Assembly: GCF_965363235.1 (NCBI RefSeq)
Contig: NC_134840.1
Location: 93,384,416-93,448,415 of the forward strand
DNA: 64,000 nt
Source: Mytilus galloprovincialis
Taxonomy: Eukaryota > Mollusca > Bivalvia > Mytilida > Mytilidae
Direction: 5' to 3'
Both the position numbers and the translations under genes were made by a program. The notes beneath the pieces were generated by a model. That model saw only the letters and a program-made list of their open reading frames with translations. It was not told the origin of the DNA and did not search any database. Positions within the stretch are counted from its first letter, which is position 1. Each line of letters starts with the position of its first letter. This document shows positions 38,146 to 59,719 of the stretch, in pieces.

Positions 38146-38147
38146 TA

Positions 38148-39449: not shown

Positions 39450-39455
39450 TATATA

Positions 39456-41340
39456 ATAAGATTTGCTTACATTCAGGTATCATATATATAGTTGCACTAT
39501 TTGTGCCTGTCCCAAGTCAGGAGCCTGTAATTCAGTGGTTGTCGTTTGTTTATGTGTTACATATTTGTTTCATAGTTATTTTTTTTATATAAATAAGGCT
39601 ATTAGTTTTCTCGTTTGAATTGTTTCACATTTTCTTATCGGGGCCTTTTATAGCTGACTATGTGGTAATGGTATGGGCTTTGCTCATTGTTGAAGGCAGT
39701 ACGATGACCTATAGTTGTTAATGTCTGTGTCATTTTGGTATCTTGTGGACAGTTGTCTCATTGGCAATCATACATGTACATCTTTATTTTATATAAGAAA
39801 CTTCCATCTATTTTAACTGACCCATCAAAATTGAGAAGAAAAAAATACCCCTTGAAATTGCAGTAATATGTTTAACTTTAAAAGCATCTAACATGCATTA
39901 CCAACATTTATCACTGATAAAGAAAATTTATACTGTTACCAGGAACATATATATTGTTAGATAAACTGTTCCCAGCTGTCACATTGTATTGGATTTTGAC
40001 ATTAAAATTTGTGTACAAAATGTTTTCTCCTTTTTCTTTCTTTTACATATATCTTTTGGTTTTCAATTTTAGTGTTTATATTTATTTACCATGCATAGAT
40101 GTATTTTGCCACCTGTCTGGATTTTTTTTAAATGATAGCCAAACCCGGGATTACCATTATCCGCTTCCGGAATCGGATCCGATATTGTAATTGTCTTCCC
40201 CGGCCGCCATTTTATTTTCAATGTTGTTTTTGACAGATGGAGTGAGATACGATTTTACTCGGATTTACACATTATTTGTCGGCGATTTTCTGTATAAATC
40301 TAGCGGTTGAACTAATTGAACATCGCTGTCATGGATAGTAATGATGAAAATAAGTCTGAGATCGTTTATTAGAAAACTTTGGTAAAAATGTTTGGAAAGT
40401 TATTTTTTTATTTTCTTTCAAGGTCCGTCGGGCATGTAGGGCGTAGCAAGTAACCAAGTAGAAAGTCCGACTGCAAAAATGGAAGGTCGCAGACCTCGGA
40501 CCACCGCTTATTTGAACCCCTGCGTCCAAATTGAAAAGATACGAAATTTCGTATTCTAATTCAAAATTGCCGCCAACAGCGTGATCAGTCGAACTTATCT
40601 TAATAGACTGCTGACGTAAATGACTACATATTGATGACAAACAATATTCCTACGACTTTTGCAATTTCGGAAATCTAAACTACTTATCTTTAGAGATTTT
40701 CGGCGATTAAATATTTCATACATTTGTTCTTTGACATCTTAGCCAAGAGATCAGGGGAAAATAAAATACATAAGGATTCCTAATGTGCTCTACTTCCTAT
40801 GTGCAACTTCAAAACTTTTGGGAAAATCGACGATCATTTAAGGTTTTTTTGGTCATATTTTTTGTAATCCAGAATGAAAAGTATGAAAAAAATGTCCAAT
40901 AAGTTATAAATAACATAATATCCAGCTAGATAATAACAATGGCACGTATTTCAGCATTTATTGGGTAGAACACAAATCCAGGGTGCTCGCATAAGGCAGC
41001 TTAACTGCCTAAAAATTCTTTTCCAATTATCATGCTTGAGATAACAGAAATTTCAAATCCTTCTTGTTTGTTTACTATTTAAATGCATTTGGACACATTT
41101 AATTCTACTTTTTAACCATTGTTAACTCTAGATCTACTTGAAATATGAACTGATTTAAAATAATGGATAAATTTTTTGTTGCTAATTTGCTTCTAGCTAT
41201 ATTTTCCTCGTTTTAGGTCATATGCTCTTATTTTTTTTTTATAAGTTTTGGATTTTCAAATATTTCCACCTAAAGCATTGCTGAAGAGTCATTTCTTGTC
41301 AAAATGCACATCTGGTGCAGAAAAATTGGTACCTTTAATG
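39456..41340. other. intronic sequence, repeat fragments and a GC-rich patch
   Basis: Repeat fragments lie at 39500-39780 (for example GTCTCATTGGCAATCATAC, inverted SINE-like, and CCTGTCCCAAGTCAGGAGCC). A patch at about 40140-40215 is richer in CpG (CGCTTCCGGAATCGGATCC, CCCCGGCCGCCATTTT), unlike the surrounding intron. The complement of the latter, AAAATGGCGGCC, is the textbook YY1 motif, but no gene start could be tied to it. Confidence 0.4.
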
Positions 41341-41343
41341 TTA

Positions 41344-41754
41344 TTAATTACAGTAATAACTAACAAACACAGTGAACAAAGCTAACAAAGTCATACCCTC
41401 TAAGCACTGTAAAAAGTGTGACAAATCAAGCCAACATAACAAAGAAGCAAAGTCGTGAGTTTTGTTAAGACGTAGCATATGGTTATTTATGTGCTCAATA
41501 TCATTATGCAAGAAACATTCTTTAATTTTTTTAAATGAAATCCATTTCAATGCTGGTTCAGAAACAAGATGCCTAAAAACTTCTGAAGATATAGCAGTCC
41601 AAATATGAGACATGAGAATGAACAGACAAACAGACCAACAAGTTAAACATACAATTACTATATACAGCTCCCTTAAAAAGGGAGGTATAATACCTACACT
41701 GTTAGTGAATTTTAAAATGGATATCCCCAAAACCATAAATAATATTATCTTCAC
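41344..41754 (-). CDS. hypothetical membrane protein, 136 codons, inside VMP1 intron
   Basis: An uninterrupted minus-strand frame starts at ATG 41754 and ends in TAA at 41344. It opens MKIILFMVLGISILKFTNS (signal-like or first membrane span), has a second hydrophobic span ELYIVIVCLTCWSVCLFILM, a hydrophilic middle (SEPALKWISFKKIKECFLHN then DIEHINNHMLRLNKTHDF), and a third hydrophobic stretch rich in Leu (LTVFVSYY-type C-terminus). Seven Cys residues lie mostly in the hydrophobic parts. I do not recognise the family. The composition is protein-like and the frame is long for this AT-rich sequence, but no upstream promoter, splice sites or polyadenylation signal were established. It could be a single-exon gene, an exon of something else, or chance. 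Confidence 0.35.
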   Translation of the reverse strand: MKIILFMVLGISILKFTNSVGIIPPFLRELYIVIVCLTCWSVCLFILMSHIWTAISSEVFRHLVSEPALKWISFKKIKECFLHNDIEHINNHMLRLNKTHDFASLLCWLDLSHFLQCLEGMTLLALFTVFVSYYCN

Positions 41755-41825
41755 TCGGACAGTAAGAACAAGATAACGTTTCTTTGTTTACACCGTCAAG
41801 TAGTGTTCAACAACTGTATCTATAT

Positions 41826-41966
41826 AGATTCCTACACTGCATCAAGTGTATTACGATATTTCTCCACTCGAGACAGTTAAATTTTATTATTTAAAGCACG
41901 AGGCTTAAAATTTAACTGTCTCAAGTGGAGAAATATCGTAATACACGAGTTATAGTGTCGGAATCT
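41826..41966. repeat. foldback palindrome with ~60 bp arms
   Basis: The left arm 41826-41885 (AGATTCCTACACTGCATCAA...CGATATTTCTCCACTCGAG then ACAGTTAAATTTT) is complementary to the right arm 41907-41966, with a ~21 nt AT-rich spacer. The inner ~40 bp are nearly perfect and the outer ~20 bp have several mismatches. This is typical of a small foldback element. It lies just upstream of the 136-codon frame on the minus strand. Confidence 0.9.
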
Positions 41967-41969
41967 GTT

Positions 41970-43290
41970 TCTCTAATGATTTTTATCCTTCTTTTTCAAA
42001 GATTTTCAGAAACTTGTGTTCTTTATATGCGACGTCATCAGGCATTGCCGCCTTTTTTCATGGCGTCACCATAGGACAATTCAGAAGAAAAAAAAACATT
42101 TAGATGTCATAATCAAATTTCGACTGATCATTTGCCGAGAACAGATTTTTCACTAGTGAGGAGAAATATTTTTCTCACACCGGTCAGGAAATGTGAAAAT
42201 AGCACAAAAATTAGAGAAAGTATCATCAATGTCTGTGCATAGATGTTAAAGAGGAGTTACACTTACAAGAGACAATTACCATAAAAAGCTCAGTATGATA
42301 AGTCCCCATTCCCTTTTTGCAACAGGAATTCAGAAAAACCTTTTTGTCACTCAGTGAAATTCTTCAACTTTCAAGATCATGGTCGTTTAAAATGTTTATA
42401 GTTCAAAATGTTGAAAAGGATTCTAGAACACTGTTATGACTGTACAGATGCTAAATAAACACAAAATAAAAAAATAAATAATATTGGAAAGTTTTTGTGT
42501 AAATTATAAACAATTTCATTGTAAGTATGTAAAACATGTAGAAATCCGATCCATAATAAATATTGGGGAAAAAATACAACTTGATATTAGGTGTTAGCTT
42601 TTAGTAAATTACTGTTCAATTTATTCATGGCTTGAACGTGTGATGACCGTAGCCAAATTATCCGCCAGCAGCTGTCTGAAACACCAAATCCAATAAATAA
42701 CTTCTTACGTAAAAATGTAGTTTATACATCATTATGCAATGCTATGAATAGAAGTAAGAAATGTCTAATGAATTATATTACATTTTGATATTTATTAGTA
42801 AATATTTTTAATTGAATATTAGTATGGAACAGATAATCATTAAAGAATTTGAAAAGAAATAAAGGTGCCCTCTACTCTTTCAGAACATTTCGCAAAGTAA
42901 GCAAACATCACAAAATTCTTGCCTTAAGTACTTAAAAATTTGCACTGCTGCCCAGCAATTTGAGATTTGCAGTAAGACTATTGATTTTGCAAGCCCGAGT
43001 ACGGTGCCACATATTGTAATATTGAAGTAGGTTCAATTATCTCCCCTATCATAATACGACCAAGATTATATTCCTTCATGTACATTGTCAGGTAGAGTTC
43101 TACAACTGTGTAAAGTGACCAACAGACAGATAGGTAGTCTGATTCCTAGATTTAAACCTCAAAAGCTTAGGTTGTTGGAAGGGGAGTTTAAAAAAGATAG
43201 AATGCCACTTACATTTTAAATCGTGTCAATGGTTTCACAAAAGTTGACACAAAATGCACAAAGGACAAAAGTAAAAATTATAAAATAGAC
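41970..43290. other. intronic sequence, nothing recognised
   Basis: VMP1 intron sequence without recognisable exons or repeats of the families described. Confidence 0.4.
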
Positions 43291-43292
43291 AG

Positions 43293-43577
43293 AACAAGAA
43301 TGTGTCCAAAGTACACAGATGCCCCACTCGCACTATCCTTTTCCATGTTCGATGGACTGTGAAATTGGGTAATAATCTAATTTGGCATTAAAATTAGAAA
43401 GATTATATCATAAGCAACAAGTGTACTAAGTTTCAAGTTGATTGGACTTCAGCTTCATCAAAAACTACCTTGACCAAAAACTTTAACCTGAATGGATGCA
43501 CAGACGAACGGACAGACGAACGGAGCCACAGACCAGAAAACATAATGCCCCTCTACTATCGTAGGTGGGGCATAAAA
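43293..43577 (+). mobile_element. family A element
   Basis: It starts ACAAGAATGTGTCCAAAGTAC and ends CCCCTCTACTATCGTAGGTGGGGCATAAAA, with a short GACGAACGGACAGACGAACGG microsatellite. It lies 94 bp 3' of a VMP1 donor. Confidence 0.8.
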
Positions 43578-43670
43578 AACAGAGTGATTACTAGAAGGCA
43601 CCCACAAAAACATGAAAGGCCAAAAATAACAGTACACACTCTCACTCGGACCATAACCTGTGAGACTTAC

Positions 43671-43811
43671 TAATTCTTCAGGATGCTCTTTTTTCTCATG
43701 AATGAGTTCTTCTATTTCTTCAAACTCATCGTCATCAAGATCTGCCCCTGACAGCGTGGCTGCCCTTGCCATAAAATAGGGCGGCAATTCTCCAAGTGCT
43801 GTCCCAGCACC
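43671..43811 (-). CDS. VMP1: VMP1 exon: [12 protein letters not shown] segment
   Basis: This 141 nt, phase 0/0 exon has acceptor ATGTTTCAG and donor GTAAGTC. It encodes [47 protein letters not shown]. [21 protein letters not shown] is invariant in animal VMP1, followed by an acidic linker whose sequence varies between species. The join to the [10 protein letters not shown] exon 7.5 kb downstream is in phase. The exon expected upstream of it (vertebrate ...IICPDEEG...SKVRIEACMW) would have to start in phase 2 and end in phase 0 and was not found between 43812 and 47464. Confidence 0.95.
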
Positions 43812-44071
43812 CTGAAACATAAAGATATATTTTTTTAATCTCTCACTCTATAATATAAATTATCCAATAATTAGTACTTCTTGTATGGTGTGGTATAAAA
43901 AATATTCTTGCATTTTTGTGCCTGTCCCAAGTCAGGAGCCTCTGGCCTGTGTTAGTCTTGTATGATTTTTAATTTTAGTTCATTTATATATTTCGGGTTT
44001 AACATCCATTATCACTGAGCTAGTACACATTTTTGTTTAGAGGCCAGCTAAAGCATGCCATGGGTGCGGGA

Positions 44072-44895
44072 TTTTTATGCCCCATTTATGGGCATTATGT
44101 TTTCTGGTCTGTGCGTCCGTTCGTCCGTCTGTTCGTTCGTCCGTTCGTTCGTCCGTTCGTCCGTCCCGCTTCAGGTTAAAGTTTTTGGTCGAGGTAGTTT
44201 TTGATGAAGTTGGAGTCTAATCAACTTGAAACTTAGTATATATGTTCTGTATGATATGATCTTTCTAATTTAAATGCCAAATTAGAGTTTTGACCCCAAT
44301 TTTACGGTTCACTGAACATAGAAAATGATAGTGCAAATTTCAGGTTAAAGTTTTTGGTCAAGGTAGTTTTTGATGAAGTTGAAGTCCAATCAACTTGAAA
44401 CTTAGTATACATGTGCCCTATGATATGATCTTTCTAATTTAAATGCCAAATTAGAGTTTTGACCCCAATTTTACGGTTCACTGAACATAGAAAATGATAG
44501 TGCAAATTTCAGGTTAAAGTTTTTGGCTTCAGGTTAAAGTTTTTGGTCAAGGTAGTTTTTGATGAAGTTGAAGTCCAATCAACTTGAAACTTAGTATACA
44601 TGTGCCCTATGATATGATCTTTCTAATTTAAATGCCAAATTAGAGTTTTGACCCCAATTTTACGGTTCACTGAACATAGAAAATGATAGTGCAAATTTCA
44701 GGTTAAAGTTTTTGGTCAAGGTAGTTTTTGATAAAGTAGAAGTCCAATCAACTTGAAACTTAGTATACATGTTCCCTTTGATAAGATCATTCTAATTTTA
44801 ATGCCAAATTAGAGAATTTATTCCAATTTCACAGTCCTTTAAACATAGAAAATGATAGTGTGAGTGGGGCATCCGTGTACTGTGGACACATTCTT
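44072..44895 (-). mobile_element. family A element with 169 bp tandem core, inverted
   Basis: Read on the minus strand it runs from AACAAGAATGTGTCCACAGTAC to ATGCCCATAAATGGGGCATAAAAA. The core block CAGGTTAAAGTTTTTGGTC recurs at 44172, 44341, 44510/44530 and 44699 (169 bp period with a 20 bp stutter). The (ACGG/ACGA)n microsatellite is at 44110-44166. It shows how the short family A copies relate to an expanded, tandem-core form. Confidence 0.85.
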
Positions 44896-44899
44896 GTTC

Positions 44900-45546
44900 T
44901 CTTTGTGTTGATGACCCATTGGTGGTCTTTGGTGAATATTGCTCTCAGGTTGGGTTGTTGTCTCTTTAACACATTCCCTATATCCATTCTCAATTTTATC
45001 TAAATATATATGATGAGTTTATTTATTTGCTATGATAGTTTCTGTATCATTTTGGTTTCTTGAGGAGAGTAGTCTTATTGTCAATCATACCACATCTTCT
45101 TTTTTATAATAAATATTTAAGAAACTATATGTCATACAACTAATAGGGAAAGAAACACAAGCAAATTAAAGAAAAATGCTATTTCAACATAAGAAATTTA
45201 TTAAAAAAAATCCAGAAAATTATAAAATTCAGAATTGATTCCTATCATTCACAAAATAAAACAATTCAAACAGGAAAATTAATCTTCAAAATATTACTGA
45301 ACACAAAACTTTGTTTTTGATGAAGTAGAAAAGTATCAAATGAAAAATAACTTTCCAACTACTTAAAGATACTGTTTATATTGGAAGGTTAAAAATTTAG
45401 GAAGATTAACACAATCATACTATTCCGTGAAATTTAAGTGTAAGCAAGTCTTTCAGAAACTTTAAATCAAAATTTTATAAAGCATTCACTGAATCCATTG
45501 ATACATGTATCTTACTAAATTAAGAAATATGGGAAGTATTAGCAAA
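44900..45546. other. intronic sequence, nothing coding recognised
   Basis: Contains fragments 'GTTGTTGTCTCTTTAACACATTCCC' (~44955) and 'ATTGTCAATCATACCACATCTTC' (~45078), both ends of common repeats. The missing VMP1 exon was looked for here without success. Confidence 0.4.
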
Positions 45547-45815
45547 CAAGAATGTGTCAATGGTACACGGATACCCTATTAACACTATCATTTTCTATGT
45601 TCAGTGGACTGTGAAATTGGGGACAGAACTCTAATTTGGCATTAACATAAAAAAAGATCATATCATAGGGAACATGCTATAAGTTTCAAGTTGATTGGAC
45701 TTCAACTTCATCAAAAACTACCTTGACCATAAACTTTAACCTGAAGCAGGATAGACAGACAAATAAACGACGCACATACCTAAAAAGGTACTGCCCCTAG
45801 GTGGGGTATAAAAAT
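45547..45815 (+). mobile_element. family A element, diverged
   Basis: It starts CAAGAATGTGTCAATGGTAC and ends TGCCCCTAGGTGGGGTATAAAAA. It retains 'TCAGTGGACTGTGAAATTGGGG' and 'ACCTTGACCATAAACTTTAACC', with a degraded microsatellite. It directly precedes a family C element. Confidence 0.75.
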
Positions 45816-45837
45816 TTTAAACACAACATTTTTAAAT

Positions 45838-47394
45838 TAAAGAACCTTAGTGAGCGCGCTCACATACCCCACGTCCCCACATTGTCATTGGAGAAAAAAA
45901 AATTGTATAAAAAAAAAAATGAATCATAATTTCCTGTCGATATACACATCTACATAGTATGTCCTTATTATCTGAAAAGGTTTCATGAAATTCTGTTGTG
46001 TGGTTTGAGAGGAGTTGCGATGACAAAAGGTTGCAGTAGTATATTGGGCAAATAAGTTCAAAGGGGCGTAACTCCTGGGAAAAAAATTGAATCGTAATTT
46101 CCTGTTGATATGCACATCTAAGTAGTATGTCCTTATTATCTGAAAAGGTTTCATGAAATTCTGTTGTGCGGTTTCAGAGGAGTTGAGATGACAAACTGTT
46201 GCAGTAGTACATTAAAGTAAATAAGTTCAAAGGGGCGTAACTCCTGGGAAAAAAAATGAATCGTAATTTCCTGCCGATATGCACATCTAAGTAGTATGTC
46301 CTTATTATCTGAAAAGGTTTCATGAAATTCTGTTGTGTGGTTTGAGAGGAGTTGCGATGACAAGGCTTGCAGTAGTATATTGATCAAATAATTTCAAAGG
46401 GGCGTAACTCCTGGAAAAAAAATTGAATCGTAATTTCCTGTGGATATGCACATCTACGTAGTATGTCCTTATTATCTACAAAGTTTCATGAAATTTTGTT
46501 GTGTGGTTTCAGAGGAGTTGAGATGACAAACTGTTGCAGTAGTACATTAAAGTAAATAAGTTCAAAGGAGCGTAACTCCTGAAAAAAAAATGAATCGTAA
46601 TTTCCTGTCGATATGCACAACTACATAGTATGTCCTTATTATCTAAAAAGGTTTCGTGAAATTCTGTTGTGTGGTTTGAGAGGAGTTGCGATGACAAACT
46701 GTTGCAGTGGTACATTAAAGTAAATAAGTTCAAAGGGGCATAACTCCTAGAAAAAAAATTGAATCGCAATTTCCCGTCGATATGCACAACTACATAGTAT
46801 GTCCTTATTATCTGAAAAGGTTTCATGAAATTCTGTTGTGTGGTTTGAGAGGAGTTGCGATGACAAAAGCTTGCAGTAGTATATTGATCAAATAATTTCA
46901 AAGGGGCGTAACTCCTAGAAAAAAAATTGAATCGTAATTTACTGTCGATATGCACATCTACGTAGTATGTCCTTATTATCTACAAAGTTTCATGAAATTT
47001 TGTTGTGCGGTTTCAGAGGAGTTGAGATGACAAACTGTTGCAGTAGTACATTAAAGTAAATAAGTTCAAAGGGGCGTAACTCCTGGGAAAAAAAATGAAT
47101 CGTAATTTCCTGTCGATATGCACAACTACATAGTATGTCCTTATTATCTAAAAAGGTTTCTTGAAATTCTGTTGTGTGGTTTGAGAGGAGTTGCGATGAC
47201 AAACTGTTGCAGTAGTACATTAAAGTAAATAAGTTCAAAGGGGCGTAACTCCTAGAAAAAAAATTGAATCACAATTTCCCGTCAATATGCACAACTACAT
47301 AGTATGTCCTTATTATCTGAAAAAGTTTCGTGAAATTCTGTTGTGTGGTTTGAGAGGAGTTGCGATGACAAGAAACAGGACTGACTGGCGGACG

Positions 47395-47430
<36 letters not shown>

Positions 47431-47450
47431 TCGTTGCGTGGGGTATAATA
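45838..47450 (+). mobile_element. family C element, ~168 bp tandem core (eight to nine units)
   Basis: It starts TAAAGAACCTTAGTGAGCGC and the palindrome GTGAGCGCGCTCAC. The core TTCAAAGGGGCGTAACTCCT recurs at 46057, 46226, 46393, 46561, 46729, 46897 and on to about 47237 (167-169 bp apart). The end has GGCGGACGGACGGACGGG, then AACATTATACCCTCCGCAAC-TTCG-TTGCGTGGGGTATAATAA, a hairpin (CGCAAC/GTTGCG inside ATTATACCC/GGGTATAAT). Open frames here (for example 46955-46509) merely repeat the unit. Confidence 0.88.
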
Positions 47451-47464
47451 AACTTTATACATAC

Positions 47465-47544
47465 TCTGTTGGATATGGTGGTTCTGGAAAGTTTGTAGAT
47501 TTACATTCATAAGCTGCTAACGTTACTGCTGCAATATGTGGTCC
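47465..47544 (-). CDS. VMP1: VMP1 exon: [14 protein letters not shown] segment
   Basis: This 80 nt exon (phase 0 in, phase 2 out) has acceptor TTATTTCAG and donor GTATGT. It encodes [20 protein letters not shown] then EPPYPT plus GA (Glu or Asp). Vertebrate VMP1 has [27 protein letters not shown], so only a few positions differ. It joins directly after the TFLLYL end of the 48910-49020 exon. It sits in a 110 bp gap between two direct copies of the family C element. Confidence 0.95.
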
Positions 47545-47560
47545 CTGAAATAATACAAAT

Positions 47561-48316
47561 TAAAGAACCTTAGTGAGCACGCTCACATACCCCAAGTCCC
47601 CACATTGTCATTGGAGAAATTAAATAAGTACAAGAAAAAAAAATGGTATAAGAAAAAATATTGAATAATAATTTCCTGTCAATATACACATCTACATAGT
47701 ATGTCCTTATTATCTACAAAATTCCATGAAATTTTGTTGTGTGTTTTCAGAGGAGTTGATATGACAAACTGTTGCAGAAGTACATTGAAGCAAATAAGTT
47801 CAAAGGGGCGTAACTCCTAGAAATAAAATTGAATCGTAATTTCCCGTCGATATGCACAACTACATAGTATGTCCTTATTATCTGAAAAGGTTTCATGAAA
47901 TTCTGTTGTGTAGTTTCAGAGGAGTTTCGATGACAAACTGTTGCAGTAGTACATTAAAGTAAATAAGTTCAAAGGGGTGTAACTCCTAGAAAAAAAATTG
48001 AATCGCAATTTCCCGTCCATATGCACAACTACATAGTATGTCCTTATTATCTGAAAAGGTTTCGTGAAATTCTGTTGTGTGGTTTGAGAGGAGTTGCGAT
48101 GACAAACTGTTGTAGTAGTACATTAAAGTAAATAAGTTCAAAGGGGCGTAATTCCTAGAAAAAAAATTAAATCGCAATTTCCTGTCGATATGCACAACTA
48201 CATAGTATGTCCTTATTATCTGAAAAGGTTTCGTGAAATTCTGTTGTGTGGTTTGAGAGGAGTTGCGATGACAAGAAACAGGACTGACGGACGGACTGAC
48301 GGACGGACTGACGGAA

Positions 48317-48349
<33 letters not shown>

Positions 48350-48370
48350 TCGTTGCGTGGGGTATAATAA
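47561..48370 (+). mobile_element. family C element, four-unit copy
   Basis: Same start (TTAAAGAACCTTAGTGAGCA) and same end hairpin (CCGCAACTTCGTTGCGTGGGGTATAATAA) as the copy at 45838, same orientation, with about four core units and a (GGACGGACTGAC)n microsatellite at 48282-48325. The start palindrome is imperfect here (GTGAGCACGCTCAC). Confidence 0.88.
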
Positions 48371-48629
48371 CATTTAACATGGGATATTGTGTATATGGAG
48401 TTGTAGAGGATGGCATCTAAATTCCTGTAAAAATAAACTCTGAATCTAGAATTTCTGAAAAACACAAAGTAATCTTTTTAACAGACTTAGAGATAAGACA
48501 AAATATACAAGTTTACAAAACACAACAGAACTGCATGTAATCCTGGTCAATCACAAGATACTCAAAAAATGTTTGTAATCATGTGTTTCATGACAGACTA
48601 ATGTTAATACACCTAGATAAAGTGCTCAC

Positions 48630-48969
48630 CAGATATAATAGAAATGTATGTAATCCTGTCCCCAGACCTACAGATGATAGTACACCAAGATATACTCACC
48701 AGATATAATAGAAATGTATGTAATCCTGTCCCCAGACCTACAGATGATAGTACACCAAGATATACTCACCAGATATAATAGAAATGTATGTAATCCTGTC
48801 CCCAGACCTACAGATGATAGTACACCAAGATATACTCACCAGATATAATAGAAATGTATGTAATCCTGTCCCCAGACCTACAGATGATAGTACACCAAGA
48901 TATACTCACCAGATATAATAGAAATGTATGTAATCCTGTCCCCAGACCTACAGATGATAGTACACCAAG
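48630..48969 (-). repeat. five tandem copies of a VMP1 exon 3' end with its splice donor
   Basis: A 70 bp unit made of the last 60 nt of the exon (CTTGGTGTACTATCATCTGT... through ...CTATTATATCTG) plus 10 nt of intron start (GTGAGTATAT) is repeated. Donors follow exon-like ends at 48910, 48840, 48770, 48700 and 48630. The first four read CTG|GTGAGTAT, and the last, which leads into the intron, reads CTG|GTGAGCAC. The copies look identical by eye. 70 is not a multiple of three, so using a later donor shifts the frame. Confidence 0.93.
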
Positions 48970-49020
48970 ACCTAACCAATATGCACACCATAATACATAT
49001 TTCTCTATTTTTGCAACATA
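48910..49020 (-). CDS. VMP1: VMP1 exon: [17 protein letters not shown] segment
   Basis: This 111 nt, phase 0/0 exon has acceptor CATTTTTCAG and the first of five consecutive donors. It encodes [37 protein letters not shown]. Vertebrate VMP1 has [37 protein letters not shown]. It is predicted to form a membrane or re-entrant segment at the start of the VTT domain. Only the donor at 48909 keeps the frame into GPHIAAV. The donor one unit on (48839) adds 70 nt and leads to a stop in the following exon, and longer versions meet a TAG in the second unit. Upstream exons (about the first 100 residues in vertebrates) were not found to the right. Confidence 0.95.
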
Positions 49021-49130
49021 CTGAAAAATGAGGACATAATATCATGGGTTATAAATTCTTATTGATTTCTTCTTAATAAATCTAATATTTCTTTTAACCC
49101 TTTCACCGATTGCTGCCCAGACAGAAGCTA

Positions 49131-50368
49131 CCGTAGATAATCGCCTATAAGTCGATCCGACTATAAGTCGGATACCCTTTTCAGCTCCAAATTCTGAGGA
49201 TTTAGTCTTGACCCTCGTATAAGTAGGACAAAATTTGGACATTTTTGTTTGCAGCTGACAGTTACTGAACGTCGGTAAAACCAATGCAAATCCAGGAATT
49301 ATATTCATTTTCTGCATGAATGTTTGTTTGGTTTAAATTTAGTTGATGTTGATTATGATAATTTATAAAGCTGTTTAATAATAAAGATGTATTTATTCCT
49401 GTTGTTTTGTTCACTGTTTGATTACAGATTAGCCATGTGTTGTTTACGTAATGCATCAATGATTTTGTAGGGTATGACTAACAACCTATTGTTTGAAAAA
49501 GCGAACATAAACCAATATGAACCTGAAAAAATTTAAAGTCAATCAATATTTTCACAGCACACATAACTCAGCGTTAAAGGAGCATGTACACTTCATAATT
49601 CTCATTATATTGTGATGATTTATAAAGGATTAAAAAAATTAAGTGAAGCTAATCAACTTTATATTAAAATAACTCCCAACTCATTAGTGTCATCTGTTCA
49701 CATATCATGCATATCACTGATGTTTTTCACACCTTTAGTGAATACAACTCTTTGTCTCTTAATTAAGGGTTATCAATGGATTATATTGGCTTGCCAATCA
49801 ATTTTGTAATCTTTGTGTTTACCTCACTGTGGTTTACCTGAGACCTTTTAATGAATAATATTTTGATCTTGGGAATGAATCTTAAAATTATTTTTGATTA
49901 TTGTATGATTTATAAGTATTGAATTGATATCATGATATCACAATAATGACACAATAACTCCGCTGAATACATCCTTTTACATAGTTGGTACATTAGTATC
50001 TCGTTTTCATTTTTGGTTCTTGGCTTTTTCTTTTGGGTTTATGCACAAACCATTTGACCATGAAAATCAATACACAAACCGGAAACAGTCGGAGATTCAA
50101 AACAAATTGACAGAAAAATGTTAACAGAGAACAAATAAAACACAAAGACAGTATTGTAGTCATTTATTTTTAACAAAAACTTTTAATTTAGGGATTTATG
50201 TAGGTTTGGCAATCACCGACGTAGTTTTGACCAGGAAATTCACTCCTGACCACTTTTCTCGAGCTTGGATTTTTCCTCTGGTCGCTGGATCTCTCTTATA
50301 AGTCGGTACCCCTCTCTGGATTCTGAATTTTACTCCCAAACTTCCGACTTATAAGCGAGTATCTACGG
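49131..50368. mobile_element. DNA transposon-like element with CCGTAGATA inverted ends
   Basis: The left end CCGTAGATAATCGCCTATAAG-TCG and right end CGACTTATAAGCGAGTATCTACGG are inverted repeats (about 24 bp with few mismatches), flanked by TA on both sides (49129-49130, 50369-50370). Subterminal CTTATAAGTCGG motifs recur. It is 1238 bp, with no intact transposase in the short frames inside, so it is probably non-autonomous or decayed. The TA target fits the Tc1/mariner superfamily. Confidence 0.82.
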
Positions 50369-50370
50369 TA

Positions 50371-50715
50371 CTCTGAGACGATGGCTTCCCTGGCTACTAT
50401 TGCTCAAGTGGGAGATCTTCATAATAAATGTCAATAAAAACTTGTTTGTAGTTATTTGTGTATTTATTTCATTCACTTACACCATGTTCACAGTTTTATT
50501 CATGTTTTGATCATTTTTTCCTCATAAAATATTCAAATTTTCAAATTTTCGGCATTATATCTAGGTGAAATTCTCAAAATTCTGCTATTTGACCCCAAAT
50601 CGTAATTTTTTAACCCAAAACGGCAAACTTTTGAAAAATTTTATGAGGCTGTACAAATTCCTCACACTGAACGATGTCCATCCCAAGTGTTTTGTACATA
50701 AAACGACATTTTATG
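50371..50715. other. no gene recognised
   Basis: An AT-rich spacer between two elements, with no exon-like frame supported. Confidence 0.4.
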
Positions 50716-50719
50716 TCAA

Positions 50720-52950
50720 ACCAGGTGCTCCGCAGGGCGCAGCTTTATACAACCGCAGAGGTCGAACCCTGAACAGTTGGGGCAAGTATGGACAAAACAT
50801 TCAAGCGTGATACAGCTCTGAATTTGGATTGTGATCAAATTTTTTACATTATATGTTTTTTTTTTTACACAAAACAAATGTCAAGATTTTACAAATCAAT
50901 TAAAGATTTCTTCAAACTTTTTAAATCTAAAATTAAATAGTTGACACAGCATAGGTTTCTGACACAGAATGAATGTGGTCTAATGAACTTAAAAGTTTTT
51001 TTTTGCCTTTGAGCAATTCACTATGCTGTTGAATATTAATCCTCTCAAAAAAATGTTTGAAGAAATTTTCTTTTTATTTATGAAATCTGAAATGAGAAAA
51101 ATTTAACCCCCCCCCTTTTTTTCACATCCCCGTTTCCCTTTTTCCAAAACTGATATCAATTCAAATTTCTAATGGAGTTTGCAACAATAACTACTCTTTT
51201 AAATACATCATAAGATATTAAAATGTAAAATAAAGTGCTTGTTATCACTGAATGGTAAAGATTGGTTGGTAGTAAAAGTGAATATACATTGTTTATTGTA
51301 TAAAACAATAAAAAAAACTTCATCAGCAACATTTTATATTGGCAAATTTCCAATGAAGTTATTTACATAAAGTTATTGGCAAATAAAAATAGAAAATGAC
51401 ATCATAGTCATGTCTGGCAAATGTCCAACATACATTATCTAAAAACATTTTAGATAAGATAAGGAAAAAAAGCTTCATCAGCAACATTTTATATTGGCAA
51501 ATTTCCAATGAAGTTATTTACATAAAGTTATTGGCAAATAAAAATAGAAAATGACATCATAGTCAAGTCTGGTAAATTTCCAACATATATTATCAACTAC
51601 TATTCTATACAAAGAAAGATAACTCCAATTGAAAATTAATTGCTATTGCACAATATTGTGCAATTAGATATTTCTTGCTATTGTGCAATACTGTGCAATT
51701 GAAAATTTCTTGCTATTGCACAATACTTGATATGGAATCCTGATTTAGACCAACTTGAAAACTGGGCCCATAATCAAAAATCAAAGTACATATCTAGATA
51801 AAGCATATCAAATAAGCCCAAGAATTTAATTTTTGTTAAAATCAAACTTAGTTTAATTTTGGACCCTTTGGACGTTAATGTAAACCAATTTGAAAACGGA
51901 CCAAAAATTAAGAATCTACATGTACACAGTTAGATTTGGCATATCAAAGAACCCCAATTATTCAATTTTTGATGAAATCAAACAAAGTTTAATTTTGGAC
52001 CCCGATTTGGACCAACTTGAAAACTGGGCCAATAATAAAAAATCTAAGTACATTTTTAGATTCAGCATATCAAAGAACCCCAAGGATTCAATTTTTGTTA
52101 AAATCAAACTAAGTTTAATTTTGGATCCTTTGGACCTTAATGTAGACCAATTTGAAAACGGGACCAAAAATTAAGAATCTACATACACAGTTAGATTCGG
52201 CATATCAAAGAACCCCAATTATTCAATTTTTGATAAAATCAAACAAAGTTTAAATCTGGACCCTTTGGGCCCTTTATTCCTAAACTGTTGGGACCAAAAC
52301 TCCCAAAATCAATACCAACCTTCCTTTTACGGTCATAAACCTTGTGTTTAAATTTCATAGATTTCTATTTACTTATACTAAAGTTATGGTGCGAAAACCA
52401 AAAAAAATGCTTATTTGGGTCCCTTTTTGGCCCCTAATTCCTAAACTGTTGGGACCTAAACTCCCAAAATCAATACCAACCTTCCTTTTGTGGTCATAAA
52501 CATTGTGTTTAAATTTCATTGATTTCTATTTACTTAAACTAAAGTTATTGTGCGAAAACCAAGAATAATGCTTATTTGGGCCCTTTTTTGGCCCCTAATT
52601 CCTAAACTGTTGAAACCAAAACTCCCAAAATCAATCCCAACCTTTCTTTTGTGGTCATAAACCTTATGTCAAAATTTCATAGATTTCTATTTACTTAAAC
52701 TAAAGTTATAGTGCGAAAACCAAGAAAATGCTTATTTGGGCCCTTTTTGGCCCCTAATACCTAAAATGTTGGGACTAAAACTCCCAAAATCAATCCCAAC
52801 CTTCCTTTTGTAGTCATAAACCTTGTGTTAAAATTTCATAGATTTCTATTCACTTTTACTAAAGTTAGAGTGCGAAAACTAAAAGTATTCGGACGACGAC
52901 GACGCCAACGTGATAGCAATATACGAGCAAAATTTGAAAGTCGTATAAAA
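50720..52950 (+). mobile_element. complete family F element
   Basis: It starts ACCAGGTGCTCCGCAGGGCG followed by CTTTATACAACCGCAG, and ends AGTCGTATAAAAA, so the ends contain inverted TTTATAC(G/A)AC. The body has a 160 bp direct duplication (CTTCATCAGCAACATTTTAT at about 51318 and 51473), the 'GCAATATTGTGCAATT' palindromic block, three copies of the 'ACCAACTTGAAAACTGGGCC' unit and four of 'CTAAACTGTTGGGACC'. It then has TTCGGACGACGACGACGCC before the end. It has no coding capacity. Confidence 0.85.
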
Positions 52951-53095
52951 ATGTAATATTTAAAAACTAAATAAAAAAATTGTATAAATTAAAAATATGA
53001 AAACATATGACCAAAAACAACTTTGAATAAGAAATATTTTGTTAATTTATATTTTGACAAAAATTATCAACATAAATTTATTAAAAAACATTTAC

Positions 53096-53518
53096 CAGGC
53101 ATGCGCCGGAAAGTAAACATCAGTACGTTGATGGTTTTCTGTAACAAAAGAAGAGAAGAAGAAATCCAACCCCCATAATAGATCATGAATTTATACATTT
53201 TTAGAATTATTTATATTTATTTTATCAAATATTATAGGATGCCGAATTGACTTTAAATAGGTGCTGATTTGACTAGTTCCGATTTAACAAGGTGCCGATT
53301 TGAACAGGTGCCGATTTGACTTGAAGTTGTACCCATTCCGACAGAATTTCGGCTGTAAAATCTCGTCTCTGTCCACATTTCAATCCTAACCTTTTGAAAT
53401 GTGATGTAACATCCCCCTGGCAATCAAATAACTCTACTAAATGTGTGCCATGAAGATGTAAACATAAAACATAAATTGATAATGTTACAGACAGCATCCA
53501 TGTTGTATACAGCGCCAT
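53096..53518 (-). CDS. candidate two-exon secreted protein (hypothetical)
   Basis: A minus-strand ATG at 53518 opens MALYTTWMLSVTLSIYVLCL-HLHG, a good signal peptide pattern, followed by THLVELFDCQGDVTSHFKRL, GLKCGQRRDFTAEILSEW. A possible donor (TGG|GTACAA, exon end 53333) is phase 0, and 194 nt on there is an acceptor TTGTTACAG with a 43 nt phase-0 exon (53138-53096) encoding KTINVLMFTFRRMP plus G, then donor GTAAATG. Without splicing the frame runs into a short AATCGGCACCTG repeat and ends at 53273. I do not recognise a family. Further exons were not found. Whether this is a real gene, possibly truncated by repeats on its 3' side, is undecided. Confidence 0.3.
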
Positions 53519-53889
53519 CTATAAATAGTTCTAAAGGGAGATAAGGTAAACTTCTTCTTCTTCTTCCAAATTTTCACATCCTTTGTAGGACAACCACACC
53601 GTTACGGCGTGTAGAACAAAACCCACCACCATGAATGTAGGAATATAATATGTACACTATATATTGAATAATGATATCCTCCACTAATATATACAGAATC
53701 ACTTTCTAGTTGCACAGAACGGGCAGATTTAATACTGCTGTTCCTCAATCCCAATCTTAACCAGCGCATACCAAATTTAAAGCACAGAGAACTTGAGAAA
53801 ATACGTCGAGGAAAACGCACCAGAGAGGAAAACTGCACATTGGGACAATTCGTGCCAACAGGCCATAAGATTGAGGATTGAGGACGTAT

Positions 53890-54175
53890 AGAAGAGGGAC
53901 GAAAGATACCAAAGGGACAGTCTAACTCATAAATCTAAAACAAACTGACAACGCCATGGCTAAAAATGAAAAATATTAACAGACAAACAAAAGTATACAT
54001 GACACAACATAGAAAACTAAAGAAAAAACAACACGAACCCCACCAAAAACTAGGGGTGATCTCAGGTGCTCCGGAAGGGTAAGCAGCCGGATCCTGCTCC
54101 ACATTTGGCACCCGTCGTGTTGCGTATGAGATAACAAATCCAGTAAATAGTCTAATTCGGTAGGTCACATAGCTT
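53890..54175 (-). repeat. inverted family G repeat
   Basis: The reverse complement of the unit at 22655: GACGAAAGATACCAAAGGGACAG, AACTGACAACGCCATGGCTA, GATCTCAGGTGCTCCGGAAGG, ACCCGTCGTGTTGCGTATGAG, GTCTAATTCGGTAGGTCACA. Confidence 0.8.
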
Positions 54176-54244
54176 GTAGTATGCATTCTTAGTTGCGTTA
54201 AAAATTGTTAGGCTAGTTACCGGACATATATACAGGGGGGATTA

Positions 54245-54394
54245 CAGTGGCGGATCCAGAACTTTTCATAAGGGGGCCCGTTGACTGACCTAAGGGGGCT
54301 CCAGTCATGCGTCAGTGATTCCTTATATAAGCAACCAATTTTTCCCACACAAAAGGCGGGCGGGCCCCCAGGCCCCCCCTGGATCCGCCTATGG
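54245..54394. mobile_element. MITE with GGCGGATCCAG inverted ends
   Basis: CAGTGGCGGATCCAG at 54245 and CTGGATCCGCCTATG at 54380-54394 are inverted copies. The interior is about 120 bp and includes GGGGGCCCG and GCGGGCGGGCCCCC runs. It is non-coding. Similar GGGGCGGATCCA text starts the G-rich fragment at 58144. Confidence 0.8.
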
Positions 54395-54399
54395 GTTAT

Positions 54400-55080
54400 A
54401 TATGTTTACGTAGTAAAATAGTAAAAGATAAATGTTGTAAAATAAATTACTTCACTCACATTCACACGGGTAAAAAGAATAACAAGCTTGCAGCATTTAA
54501 ATCTAAAAATAGTTCGCTTTTCACAATATAGACTAAGGATCTAAAAGCTAAAACACTTTGTCTTCTTTTCATCAGAGACTCTGTTTTCATTAACTAAAAT
54601 CGAATAAAACGTTCATAGTGTCTACATACTTAATCCACGCATAGAATTTGTCGTTTTACATCATAACATCTAATAAAAAGGTTTTTAAGATTTCATCGTA
54701 TCTATATATTAGCACTTTGTGTGACGTTTACGATCTAGGCACGCACTGTATATGTAAAGCCAATTGTCATGTTTTTATTTACTTAGATCTAAAACTTAAA
54801 AACTTGTCTTCGTCTCAACTCGGCCGATTGCGTACCCTCATCTAGGAAGGAGCTAGAGTATCGGATTCTACCGAGGATTGTCGAATGCAAACCACCCTTC
54901 AGCTAATCAGAAAATGTTTCACGACTATTTTTCTGACTTACAGTGGTTTTTTTTTTGGTTTTTTTTATAACCTTCTTCAGTTCAAATAATGATAACCTAG
55001 AATTTATTGTCGTTCTTTGCAAATCAAAGAACTGTGTTTTGTTTTTTTACAATTTTGGTATGGATACATACAGGATCATA
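54400..55080. other. no gene recognised
   Basis: A 65-codon plus-strand frame at 54648-54845 was considered. No family recognised and no splice evidence was found. Confidence 0.4.
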
Positions 55081-55084
55081 AACT

Positions 55085-55285
55085 GATAAAGGGGGGAATA
55101 GGACCTTTATCGGGACTCCGGGATCGGGTGTTTTTAAACTCGGGATTTCGGGATTGACCCTTTCGGGATCCGGGAATCCTTTTTTTCGGATTTCGGGATG
55201 TCGGGATTTGCTTTATTTAAATTCGGGACCTCGGGATTTTTTTCAAGTCCGGGATTTCGGGATTAAGACCCCTCCTATCCCCCCT
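55085..55285 (+). repeat. TCGGGA-rich repeat, copy 1
   Basis: CGGGAT(T/C)/TTCGGGAT motifs recur more than a dozen times in 200 bp, including 'GGGATTGACCCTTTCGGGATCC' and 'GGGACCTCGGGATTTTT'. The many GGG runs on one strand make it an outlier in base composition. A second, shorter copy follows at 55540. Confidence 0.85.
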
Positions 55286-55539
55286 CATAAAGGGAAACTG
55301 ATAATTTTTTGTATGATATGTGCTCTTGTTTTTCAGCGATGATCCTTTTGTGCTGGGTTTTATACTGAATAAAATTAGTTAGTTAGTTTCTGTACTTTTT
55401 TTTATTAAATGGCTATCCGCAATATGTTTAATAAGATCATTTAGTCTGAGTTGTTTGATTGAGTATCGAGAAAGAAAAAAAAATCTGATGTATGCAGCAT
55501 AAACACGAAAATTTTGATAACTACATGGCAGAGGGAGGG

Positions 55540-55690
55540 GCAGGACTTTTTCGGGACGTCGGGATCGGGTGTTTTTAAGCTCGGGCCTGATTTCGGGATT
55601 GACCCTTTCGGGATCCAAGATTTATTTTTTCTAATTTCGGGATGTCGGGAATTAAATTTCTTTAAATTCGGGACCTCGATTATTTAGATA
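55540..55690 (+). repeat. TCGGGA-rich repeat, copy 2
   Basis: Same order of motifs as the copy at 55085 (GGGATCGGGTGTTTTTAA, CGGGATTGACCCTTTCGGGA, TCGGGATGTCGGGA, AAATTCGGGACCTCG) with small insertions and a degraded 3' end, about 450 bp downstream. It ends before a poly-T tract at 55700-55730. Confidence 0.85.
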
Positions 55691-55763
55691 TAGAGGTTGT
55701 TTTTTTTTTTTTTTTTTCTTTTTTTTTTTATTATTAAAGACAGTTTTTGTACTAGTGTAAATT

Positions 55764-56341
55764 CATTTACCTGAATGGTCTCAAATATTAGATAGTATCA
55801 GATAGTAGAGAAACAACAGTCATATCACATCCCATATATATGATAATAAGAGATGTTTCTGGAATTACGTATATCAAAATATTTAAGTTTAGTGCTTTTC
55901 GGTAAAATCCTATTTATTACAGAAATGCAATCTAAAACAAAAACCAAAGGCATCTTTTTTAAATAACAAGATACCCAAGTCGGAAGAATTAATATTTTAA
56001 TTAATGATTAAAAAAAGGAAGCTGAAAGTATCTATTTAAGGTCTTTCATAACAGCGGTATTTGTTAAAGGGACTGAAACGATTAGACGCGTGCTCAAAAT
56101 CAGCATGCATGATGAGTTGGTTACCGTTATGTGGTTAAAAGCTTGATAAGTGAAATGACAACTTTATTGCACCTACGCCTACGCAGGTCAATTCAGTTCA
56201 ATGATGCACCGTCTAATAGTTCTCGCACTTATATCATTAGCAACGCCAAAGTAAATACATCATTTGAGTGAAACATTTATATGCAACAGTTTTATCAAAC
56301 GGTGCGAAAAGATGCAATTTAGTATTATGATTTGTATTTTT
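55764..56341 (+). repeat. ~575 bp direct duplication, copy 1
   Basis: From CATTTACCTGAATGGTCTCA to TAGTATTATGATTTGTATTTT. It matches the copy at 56407-56983 almost base for base. By eye only a handful of substitutions and 1-2 nt indels differ (for example ACAAAAACC versus ACAAAGACC, GGTGCG versus GGCGCG). No gene was recognised in the unit. Confidence 0.92.
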
Positions 56342-56406
56342 ATATGTTGAATTTATATGTAGTAGTTTTAGACAAAACCGATTAATAATCTGATTGAAAA
56401 AAATAC

Positions 56407-56983
56407 CATTTACCTGAATGGTCTCAAATATTAGATAGTATCAGATAGTAGAGAAACAACAGTCATATCACATCCCATATATATGATAATAAGAGATGTT
56501 TCTGGAATTACGTATATCAAAATATTTAAGTTTAGTGCTTTTCGGTAAAATCCTATTTATTACAGAAATGCAATCTAAAACAAAGACCAAAGGCATCTTT
56601 TTAAATAACAAGATACCCAAGTCGGAAGAATTAATATTTTAATTAATGATTAAAAAAAGGAAGCTGAAAGTATCTATTAAAGGTCTTTCATAACAGCGGT
56701 ATTTGTTAAAGGGACTGAAACGATTAGACGCGTGCTCAAAATCAGCATGCATGATGAGTTGGTTACCGTTATGTGGTTAAAAGCTTGATAAGTGAAATGA
56801 CAACTTTATTGCACCTACGCCTACGCAGGTCAATTCAGTTCAATGATGCACCGTCTAATAGTTCTCGCACTTATATCATTAGCAACGCCAAAGTAAATAC
56901 ATCATTTGAGTGAAACATTTATATGCAACAGTTTTATCAAAAGGCGCGAAAAGATGTAATTTAGTATTATGATTTGTATTTTT
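56407..56983 (+). repeat. ~575 bp direct duplication, copy 2
   Basis: The second copy, offset 643 bp from the first, with about 65 bp of unrelated AT-rich sequence between the two. The near identity implies a recent event or an assembly duplication of two haplotypes. Confidence 0.92.
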
Positions 56984-56984
56984 T

Positions 56985-57505
56985 TAAAAACTTTACATCA
57001 GTAGGATACAGTCCTGCATGATCTAAGCCGTGGAGATTTTTTTAAGGCAAAATAAAGCTATTAATCTGTTATGGCATGCAGATAATAACATGCTAAAACA
57101 ACAAGTTCTAAGGTTTTTGGATTTTCTAATAACCACTCAAAGATAGAAAAATATAGTACATGTTCTAGAAATGGGACAACTTTGACAGATTATCTATACA
57201 CATACATTTAATGCATTAAAAAGAATGAAGGAAATTGAAAAGAAACTTCAGTTTTACATATAATATTACGTTTACATGCATTTAATAATCTAACCATACT
57301 CATTTTTTTCTAATAACCTATAATGAGACTTAATTAATTAATTAACTTAATTAATTTTTGTTGTTTTGTTTTTTTCAATGTAATAATGTCAAACTGTAAC
57401 CAACACAAGAATGACGTTAAGATTTATACCGAAAACATGAATTTGGATGGTTTCGTTTTCCTGCGTTATGATATAATAGACCAAACATCAAAAACAATGT
57501 ATGGA
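56985..57505. other. no gene recognised
   Basis: AT-rich with a TTAATTAATTAATTAACTTAATTAATT palindromic tract near 57331-57357. No exon is supported. Confidence 0.45.
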
Positions 57506-57507
57506 TA

Positions 57508-57570
57508 TAAGTTGTTTGCTTCACGTCCAATGGACAATATTTCATGATATTCAGGACGATACTAATTAAC
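57508..57570 (-). repeat. fragment of the SINE-like element
   Basis: GTTGTTTGCTTCACGTCCAATGGACAATATTTCATGATATTCAGGACGA corresponds to the 3' tail region of the insertion at 35688-36117 (GTTGGTTGCTTAACGTCCAGTGGCAA...TATTCAGGACGAG). Confidence 0.65.
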
Positions 57571-57611
57571 AAAAACACTCAGTTGTATTAGCATTAGCAA
57601 AACTCATATCC

Positions 57612-57900
57612 GTGATTCAAGATTCAAGATTCAAAGTTTTATTTAGAGTCGATATTCAATAAACTACATAACACAAGCTCTAGACTTAATAACAAAATAC
57701 AATACACACATACACAATACAATACACACATACAAAAGTCATGAAAAACAACACAATTTTAAACATATAATGCATAGTAAGATACCATAAATGACATATA
57801 TAAGTTAAAAGCATATAGTACACTTAAAACACAGCACAAGTTAATAATAAGATTGCACAAATCATATAGTCACACAAAAAATAAAAGCAAAATAAAACAG
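57612..57900 (+). repeat. GATTCAA and CAATACACACATA repeat block
   Basis: GATTCAAGATTCAAGATTCAAAG is followed by an A-rich stretch with CAATACACACATACA repeated twice. It is probably one end of an interspersed repeat. Non-coding. Confidence 0.5.
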
Positions 57901-58142
57901 GCATAAACACTATATGCATGCACTCCACTGGCATGAGCTATATTATGAATATTATATGAATGCATGGTCGACTTTGAAACTTTTGCTTATATATTATATA
58001 TACTTTCTATGTTGAAGTTTGTGATGGAATGTCTGTCAATCAAAGATGGACCCATATAAAGCTGCTCAGTCTTAATATTTGGTATGCAGGTGTAATAATA
58101 TTAGAACATCTCATTTCTTTGCCGCATAGTACATGGCCCAGC

Positions 58143-58300
58143 AGGGGCGGATCCAACCATTTTAAAAAGGGGGGTTCCTAACCCAGGACAAAGGGAGGGG
58201 GGGTCCTAACCCAGGACAAAAGGGGGGGGGGGTTCCAATTACATGTCCCCATTCAAATGCATTGATCGTCCAAAAAAAAGGGGGGTTCCAATGGACTGTT
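58143..58300 (+). repeat. G-rich repeat fragment with internal duplication
   Basis: GGGGCGGATCCAACCATTTT is followed by two copies of GGTTCC/TCCTAACCCAGGACAAAGGG with long G runs, then TGTCCCCATTCAAATGCATTGATC. It is related to the fragment at 7377-7465. Confidence 0.65.
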
Positions 58301-58535
58301 CACCGACTGGAACTTTTCTTCTATGGTACTGGCACGATTTAATTTATGATTATCATGATTATAGGTCCCTTATATTAATGATATATGGTACGCAATTGGA
58401 TTAACATCGACATATCTCAATTCACTGAGATAATTTTACTCTACAATCAATGAAGTTTTTCACCAGTTATTTAATCGTGTAATCTTTCGGGGTTTCCCTT
58501 ACAAAAAATGCTTAACTAGTATATTTATATATATA

Positions 58536-58745
58536 AATATAGGAAGATTTGGTATGATTGCCAATGAGACAAATCTCCACATGGTCAGAGAACAAATGCA
58601 CAAGAATTATACAACTATTAGTTAACGTACGGTCTTCAAAAATGAGCAAAACCCAAACCACATATAGCAAGCTATGAAAGGCCTCAAATGACAAATATAA
58701 AACAACTAACGGCCTGACTTATGTACAACAACAGCGGAAAAATAT
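58536..58745 (+). repeat. SINE-like 'TTGGTATGATTGCCAATGAGAC' repeat
   Basis: Contains GGTATGATTGCCAATGAGAC, AAATCTCCACATGG, 'ACGTACGGTCTTCAAAAATGAGC', 'AAACCACATATAGCAAGCTATGAAAGGCC' and 'AACTAACGGCCTGACTTATGTAC', the ordered blocks of the family also seen at 15551 and 59222. Confidence 0.75.
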
Positions 58746-59215
58746 TATGATATATAGCAATAAATGCAAGCATACAGATTTATACAGGCTACTAACTTGC
58801 TACATGCACATTTAGAATGACGCGGATTTAAACTAGTTTGCTGCCTCAAGAACTCCCTGATAACCTGGGACAGTGCATGGTGAACTAGTACATAGAACAT
58901 AAGAACAAACTATAAAAAAAATCATTGAAAAGGGCTTAACTCATCAGATTGATCGAAAGCACAAAACAACTAACAGAACACATCCTGGACGTGCCAGGGA
59001 TTTATTCAACCCCACAACAACAACAGACACATAACGTTACTCGCAGTTACTAACAGTTAGTTCAAAGTCAATAACAAATAATTAAAAAAATATCTAATAC
59101 AGATCTTATCAAAACGGGAAGCTCCCTTTCTGAATTGTATTGAAAATAGGTTAAAGGTTCCCCATATTAAGTTTTTTCTGGTGCAATTGAATACCTATAA
59201 ACTGGTATCAATATA
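58746..59215. other. repeat flank, no gene recognised
   Basis: Continuation of A-rich repeat-like sequence after the SINE-like unit. It includes CATCCTGGACGTGCCAGGG and an ACAACAACAACAG tract. Nothing coding is supported. Confidence 0.4.
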
Positions 59216-59221
59216 AAAATG

Positions 59222-59490: not shown

Positions 59491-59642
59491 TATATATATA
59501 TATACATAATGTGACAGGGTTAAATCATGTTAAAGGCGCCAATCATTCATGACCTTGGAAAATGGTGTAACGATTGGAATATTCGATTAAAAAAAATAAA
59601 ATAATTAAAAATGAGCTTTCCAAAATTTTCTGTACTTGTAAA

Positions 59643-59715: not shown

Positions 59716-59719
59716 GTAT

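Follow-up and report, generated by a model that had tools for sequence, protein, structure and literature searches.

The window analyzed here, the whole stretch of 64,000 nucleotides from Mytilus galloprovincialis, carries on its minus strand a series of exons resembling the gene VMP1, one of which ends in a tandem array of splice donors. With a human VMP1 query sequence, five exon matches of 58-92% identity were found, covering parts of residues 101-304 only (Table 1). The exon bearing the array starts at 49020, is preceded by TTTTTCAG and comprises 111 nt up to its first donor, which translate to 37 letters. Repetition with a period of 70 bp covers the end of this exon and its donor over 4.9 units, and comparison of the array with itself at a lag of 70 gave 276 matches in a row. 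Units 1-4 were identical, while unit 5 deviated at 3 of 70 bases, all among its last four. Each unit consists of 61 exonic and 9 intronic bases, which corrects the division into 60 and 10 given in an earlier note on this DNA. A chance repeat was rejected: no ungapped stretch elsewhere in the window, on either strand, came within 22 mismatches of the unit.

The array provides five donors, four of which read CTG/GTGAGT (the slash marks the exon-intron boundary) and the outermost CTG/GTGAGC. Only donor 1 kept the VMP1 frame into the next exon at 47544; donor 2 caused a frameshift with a stop 38 nt inside that exon, and donors 3-5 led to a TAG at 48810-48808. The exact spacing of the five donors, the unique frame of the first and the fate of the second had all been claimed in the earlier note and were borne out, as was the TAG met by the later donors, which lies in the third unit and not in the second as had been stated. 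If the window copy were transcribed, donor 1 alone would join the exons in frame.

The VMP1-like segment in the window is not a whole gene. Although its similarity to VMP1 is clear, it lacks a complete set of coding exons from the N- to the C-terminus: the exon for residues 165-194 is absent, no convincing minus-strand match to residues 1-100 was detected above 49021 (15 kb upstream within the window, lowest E 0.39), and none to residues 303-406 below 34870 (34.8 kb downstream, lowest E 0.51). A Pfam scan of the piece encoding residues 101-164 gave nothing above the cut-off, and comparison of this 64-residue piece with solved structures gave one chance-level match only. As read from its sequence, the window copy cannot encode the whole of VMP1.

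To determine where else the array occurs, a 501-bp region was searched against the same genome (1.385 Gb, 331 contigs), and all 17 first-look candidates were scored. The array was present at 17 genomic places, named here by contig and position in Mb. About 20 kb were read around 10 of the 16 other loci, which together with the window gives 11 copies on eight contigs; the remaining places are five loci without an array reading (C3:84.6, C9:42.0, C5:49.0, C11:0.85 and C7:65.2) and the apparent parent gene described below. Taking the unit number of each locus as assembled, so that variation is counted among genomic copies and not among individuals, five copies held 5 units (window, C14:53.3, C14:27.69, C14:27.19 and C5:97.3), four held 6 units (C14:29.4, C4:0.17, C1:27.0 and C11:40.6), C2:35.3 held 7 and C12:7.4 held 11. 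The outermost unit and its continuation into the intron were identical in 11 of 11 copies. Among their 67 donors, 55 read CTGGTGAGT, 11 were the outermost CTGGTGAGC and one was broken (CTGATGAGT). All 11 copies consisted of 70-bp units and contained no 72-bp block; matches of at least 89% to such a block were confined to C5:37.2 Mb. A one-off assembly error fails to explain the array, because it was assembled separately on eight contigs with differing unit numbers, and judged by these copies it did not come about by an accident of assembly and is not peculiar to one VMP1 gene.

Lesions were observed in 5 of the 11 copies (window, C14:27.69, C5:97.3, C12:7.4 and C11:40.6). The exon for residues 165-194 was absent from the window and from C14:27.69 and present in the nine others, no match to the exon for residues 139-164 was found in the C5:97.3 and C12:7.4 copies, and the C11:40.6 copy had a 1-nt deletion in the exon starting at residue 101 and a 10-nt insertion in the exon starting at residue 195. 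In the C14:53.3 copy (L010 760-5405), the exon for residues 165-194 occurred four times at a spacing of about 1.5 kb. A SINE-like insertion at 35675-36129 of the window lies directly at the donor of the exon at 36207-36127, and this donor is duplicated by what appears to be the target duplication of the insertion (TCGGTAAGTACT, 36129 and 35686). Both exact copies of TCGGTAAGTACT were also present in two of five other copies checked (L024 and L028).

The sequence surrounding these fragments is itself repeated. Four 601-bp probes from the window (20000-20600, 30800-31400, 56300-56900 and 62300-62900) were searched, for which the best 40 of 211, 46, 78 and 1425 candidates, respectively, were scored, so that the counts of probe places are lower bounds. 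The four probes recurred together genome-wide, which defines a carrier repeat of at least 43 kb present at no fewer than about 40 loci, with full-length probe matches 96-100% alike. Among the matches listed, 34 of the 40 places of the 62-kb probe had a place of the 20-kb probe within 130 kb, at a median spacing of 49.8 kb, compared with 42.3 kb in the window. When the VMP1 matches were grouped with the places of the three probes from 30800 onward, they formed, likewise among the matches listed, 44 clusters on contigs C1-C7, C9, C11-C14, C20, C33 and C105: 18 with both carrier and VMP1 exons (16 of these with the array), 25 with carrier only, and a single one, C5:37.2 Mb, with VMP1 but without carrier. 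The window has 65 stop-to-stop frames of at least 80 codons; in the 10 of them that were scanned with Pfam, no transposon domain was found.

Several features point to C5:37.2 Mb as the apparent parent. VMP1 exons for residues 195-304 were found at 19 loci, 18 of them with carrier probes, and C5:37.2 Mb was the only locus at which C-terminal VMP1 residues gave matches with an E of at most 0.001 (2 matches among 5 candidates). These C-terminal matches lie about 1.4-2.3 kb past the exon for residues 266-304, with a weaker match to residues 304-330 in between. The locus appeared in none of the carrier lists among the matches listed. Within the part of the parent that was covered, the window from 49095 to 34774 is homologous to C5:37225669 to 37210154, and homology then ends. 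Since both edges adjoin high-copy repeats, they may represent later insertions rather than the points of capture.

The parent locus was read in part, with the exon for residues 139-164 outside, and its array was read from one 2.75-kb stretch. There, behind the same exon, stood seven units measuring 68-70 bp, fourteen measuring 72 bp and one more that was lengthened by about 0.6 kb of other sequence. Among the 22 exon-end copies, 20 carried CTGGTGAGT, one CTGGTTAGT and one CTGTTGAGT, the two altered donors reading GTTAG and TTGAG. With the next exon of the window as a stand-in, donor 1 was in frame and all 19 intact donors behind it led to a stop, located 38 nt ahead of the junction for donor 2 and at least 108 nt ahead for the others. 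As a rule of thumb, nonsense-mediated decay would act on most transcripts with such premature stops. The 72-bp units share their donor half with the 70-bp units, and their middle differs, matching the intron.

These unit families bear on how the array arose. The first part of the intron and the last part of the exon are homologous: in the window their local alignment scored 46, against at most 38 in 2000 single-base shuffles, and the parental form of the intron scored 40, a value reached by one of 2000 shuffles. The motif TCTTGGTGTA stands at exon position -61; the common unit has it again at intron position +10, 70 bp away, which accounts for the 70-bp unit size. The deviating outermost donor had been seen correctly in the earlier note, which ascribed it to inward expansion from a different ancestral junction. 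There is another explanation: because the intron opens with a decayed exon-end copy and nearly all parent units continue GTGAGTATATCTTGG, GTGAGCAC, on the sequences compared, is the state of the outermost copy, common to all 11 copies read. The idea that a templated insertion gave rise to the TATA where units join was dropped, given that the parent array has GTGAGTATATCTTGG as its ordinary intron start.

We therefore read the locus as follows with considerable confidence: a splice-donor minisatellite probably arose in VMP1 and spread as part of a copied segment that comprises about 14 kb of the gene, so that the window array would be a length-variable passenger in a dispersed, broken fragment. 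Among the three options offered in the earlier note, minisatellite expansion over a splice site was the right one. In a first step, an old duplication would have made the intron start homologous to the exon end, leaving the direct repeat TCTTGGTGTA, and slippage or unequal exchange between its copies would then have produced 70-bp units, each with a donor. Expansion in the apparent parent to 22 donor copies, 20 of them intact, would have followed, as its sequence suggests. Next, the repeat of at least 43 kb would have received a copy of about 14 kb from an allele whose array had 70-bp units; the resulting distribution is that seen at the carrier loci, 18 of which hold VMP1 exons. Unit number now varies between the copies as listed above.

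Several points count against this interpretation or limit it. A search for an empty site of VMP1 entry gave no full-length match in the best 40 of 1353 candidates, both flanks being high-copy repeats. The absence of the carrier from C5:37.2 Mb rests on the best 40 candidates per probe and hence is no proof. No N-terminal VMP1 exons were matched at the parent with the human query, a result that is uninformative, and the completeness of the parent's exons is a further point of this kind for a locus that only looks like the parent VMP1 gene. The 70-bp spacing is limited to the common unit, since the outermost copy has TCTAGGTGTA at +13 as its intronic repeat. The exons that are fully comparable with the parent (101, 165 and 195) showed few or zero base differences in the copies, and for residues 195-304, 54 of 55 exon matches were free of stops; recent copying explains such near-unchanged exons, though constraint would fit too. 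Finally, the window fragment may be transcribed.

Among the alternatives, a working tandem-donor device that sets the level of productive VMP1 mRNA, at the parent and perhaps at the window, is unlikely. At the window this idea, put forward in the earlier note, is unsupported: the copy is a truncated fragment without the exon for residues 165-194 and without detectable N- and C-terminal exons, and is one of 18 dispersed copies. The regulatory idea shifts to the parent, where the 20 unaltered donors among 22 and the early stops behind all but the first (18 of the 19 more than 50 nt ahead of the junction) speak for it. Since each of the later intact donors gave a premature stop in the frame test, we predict that donor choice should affect VMP1 output there. 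On the other hand, two of the 22 parental donors are altered, and the donor half of the 72-bp units was not significantly more conserved than the remainder (variable columns 4 of 44 versus 7 of 28, Fisher p 0.095), so that ordinary homogenisation would suffice. Sequence support for regulation at the parent stops at the intact donors, and a regulatory effect there is conceivable. A wider proposal, in which a VMP1 gene carries a hypervariable array of about 20 donors, only the first productive, whose length would set the share of productive mRNA, and in which the carrier copies would serve as a pool of exchangeable units, appears doubtful.

It is very improbable that the copies scattered over the genome function as VMP1 paralogues and that the assembly dropped their end exons or these exons fall outside the DNA that was read. 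The stop-free matches and very low divergence of their exons are in line with such paralogues. However, an internal exon is missing in 4 of the 11 copies and a fifth has a frameshift, no C-terminal exon was matched at the carrier loci at E 0.001, and homology to the parent ends at window position 34774 with unrelated sequence beyond, and the five other copies read across this point are collinear with the window. That a single array was replicated or expanded by the assembler, the remaining option of the earlier note, is refuted as a general explanation and can hardly be entertained: the units are nearly identical and the unit number per locus is the assembly's, but independent copies at 17 places, those read lying on eight contigs, differ in flanking insertions and unit numbers, and the parent array holds two diverged unit types.

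Further observations concern the carrier repeat. The small contig C33 (35928-83812, L043) contained carrier probes and VMP1 exons for residues 195-304 and no array match, as did C5:19.1 Mb. Window positions 36248-41009, which include a 120-bp tandem array, are missing from other copies, with homology skipping from 36247 to 41010 in the five copies read across this point; the C14:27.69 copy reads into it. The segment 49132-50368 is common to the window and C14:27.69 and absent from the nine other copies. On the minus strand at 19453-19821, a 123-codon frame resembles a membrane-protein transmembrane exon (best Pfam match PRIMA1, E 0.00066, below the cut-off) and is possibly another gene fragment in the carrier. 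In the neighbourhood of C12:7.4 (L027 7573 onward), a 656-codon open frame looked by eye like a reverse-transcriptase polyprotein.

Table 1. Features of the window that belong to the carrier repeat, the VMP1-like fragment and its donor array (positions in the window; blank where nothing is given).
Feature	Position	Strand	Basis or remark
Dispersed carrier repeat, minimum extent	20000..62900		Four co-recurring probes
Outer limits of homology to apparent parent (C5:37210154-37225669), where read	34774..49095	-	Both edges adjoin high-copy repeats
VMP1-like exon, residues 101-138, 111 nt up to donor 1	48910..49020	-	VMP1 match
Tandem array, 70-bp period, 4.9 units, exon end and donor	48625..48970	-	Lag-70 comparison
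Donor 1, CTG/GTGAGT, sole in-frame donor	48904..48912	-	Frame test; last exonic base 48910
Donor 2, CTG/GTGAGT, frameshift, next-exon stop	48834..48842	-	Frame test; last exonic base 48840
Donor 3, CTG/GTGAGT, stop 38 nt ahead of junction	48764..48772	-	Frame test; last exonic base 48770
Donor 4, CTG/GTGAGT, stop 108 nt ahead of junction	48694..48702	-	Frame test; last exonic base 48700
Donor 5, CTG/GTGAGC, stop 178 nt ahead of junction	48624..48632	-	Frame test; last exonic base 48630
Decayed exon-end copy opening the intron	48555..48617	-	Local alignment score 46 vs shuffle maximum 38
VMP1-like exon, residues 139-164, donor GTATGT	47465..47544	-	VMP1 match
Position of exon 165-194 in nine of ten other copies read; exon absent in window	44077..45032	-	Copy comparison
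VMP1-like exon, residues 195-246	43671..43811	-	VMP1 match
VMP1-like exon, residues 238-266	36127..36207	-	VMP1 match
VMP1-like exon, residues 266-304	34862..34978	-	VMP1 match

Arrays of this type have relatives in human genes. Turri, Cuin and Porter reportedly described in 1995, to go by the title, a human interferon-induced transcript, said to be that of IFI6 (6-16), whose minisatellite contains multiple splice donors; its unit is short and the gene a different one, and we know of no mobile carrier for it. The human CBS gene contains a 31-bp variable number tandem repeat, c.1444_1467+7(16_21), whose name, given in PMC2630376, stands for the final 24 coding bases of an exon together with 7 intron bases, in a variable number of 16-21 copies. 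As far as that description goes, the mussel array resembles it in repeating an exon end with its donor in tandem and in a varying unit number (5, 6, 7 and 11 among 11 genomic copies), and differs from this 31-bp unit of one human gene in its 70- and 72-bp units, its two parental unit families and the dispersal of one version on a large repeat. Unlike the CBS type, the window array does not lie in a complete single gene; C5:37.2 Mb, which was read in part, may. The CBS 844ins68 allele is given in the same source as a 68-bp duplication over an intron/exon junction with neighbouring duplicate splice sites (PMC2630376), and is, by this account, a single duplication at another junction, whereas an array of exon-end donors is found here. 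According to the literature, human segmental duplications contain variable tandem repeats at exon-intron boundaries, which can alter splicing and form introns (PMC2812944), and a duplication spanning a splice boundary supplies splice signals (PMC4974935). Compared with intron gain by tandem duplication as outlined there, the 70-bp unit does contain AGGT, but it is the donor of an existing intron that was multiplied, and no new intron was shown.

Helitrons are marked by a RepHel protein, terminal motifs and a 3' hairpin. No RepHel match by Pfam was obtained in the 10 of 65 window frames scanned, and the carrier is possibly non-autonomous. Maize Helitrons are described as dispersing captured gene fragments, at up to 39 kb (PMC6431247), and oyster Helentrons as bivalve elements carrying tandem repeats (PMC7492417). 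The carrier, at 43 kb or more, is like Helitrons so described in dispersing a captured gene fragment, and membership among them is not claimed. In a limited look at open-licence literature, no title or abstract dealt with a mussel or mollusc VMP1 fragment or a Mytilus counterpart, from which no claim is made that none has been published. The architecture of the array is already on record; the present case differs in how large the parental array is, in the two unit families it holds and in the spread over the genome on a repeat exceeding 40 kb.

The apparent parent presents a natural series of about 20 identical competing 5' splice sites, the first of which alone is useful, and would make it possible to test directly how the splicing machinery selects one of several equal donors. 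As the dispersed copies indicate, a large repeat can move a gene fragment with its introns and a minisatellite to many chromosomal places; the copies also provide replicates for measuring the rate at which the array changes in length. For work on this genome, VMP1 annotations or RNA reads may be mis-assigned among the many near-identical copies.
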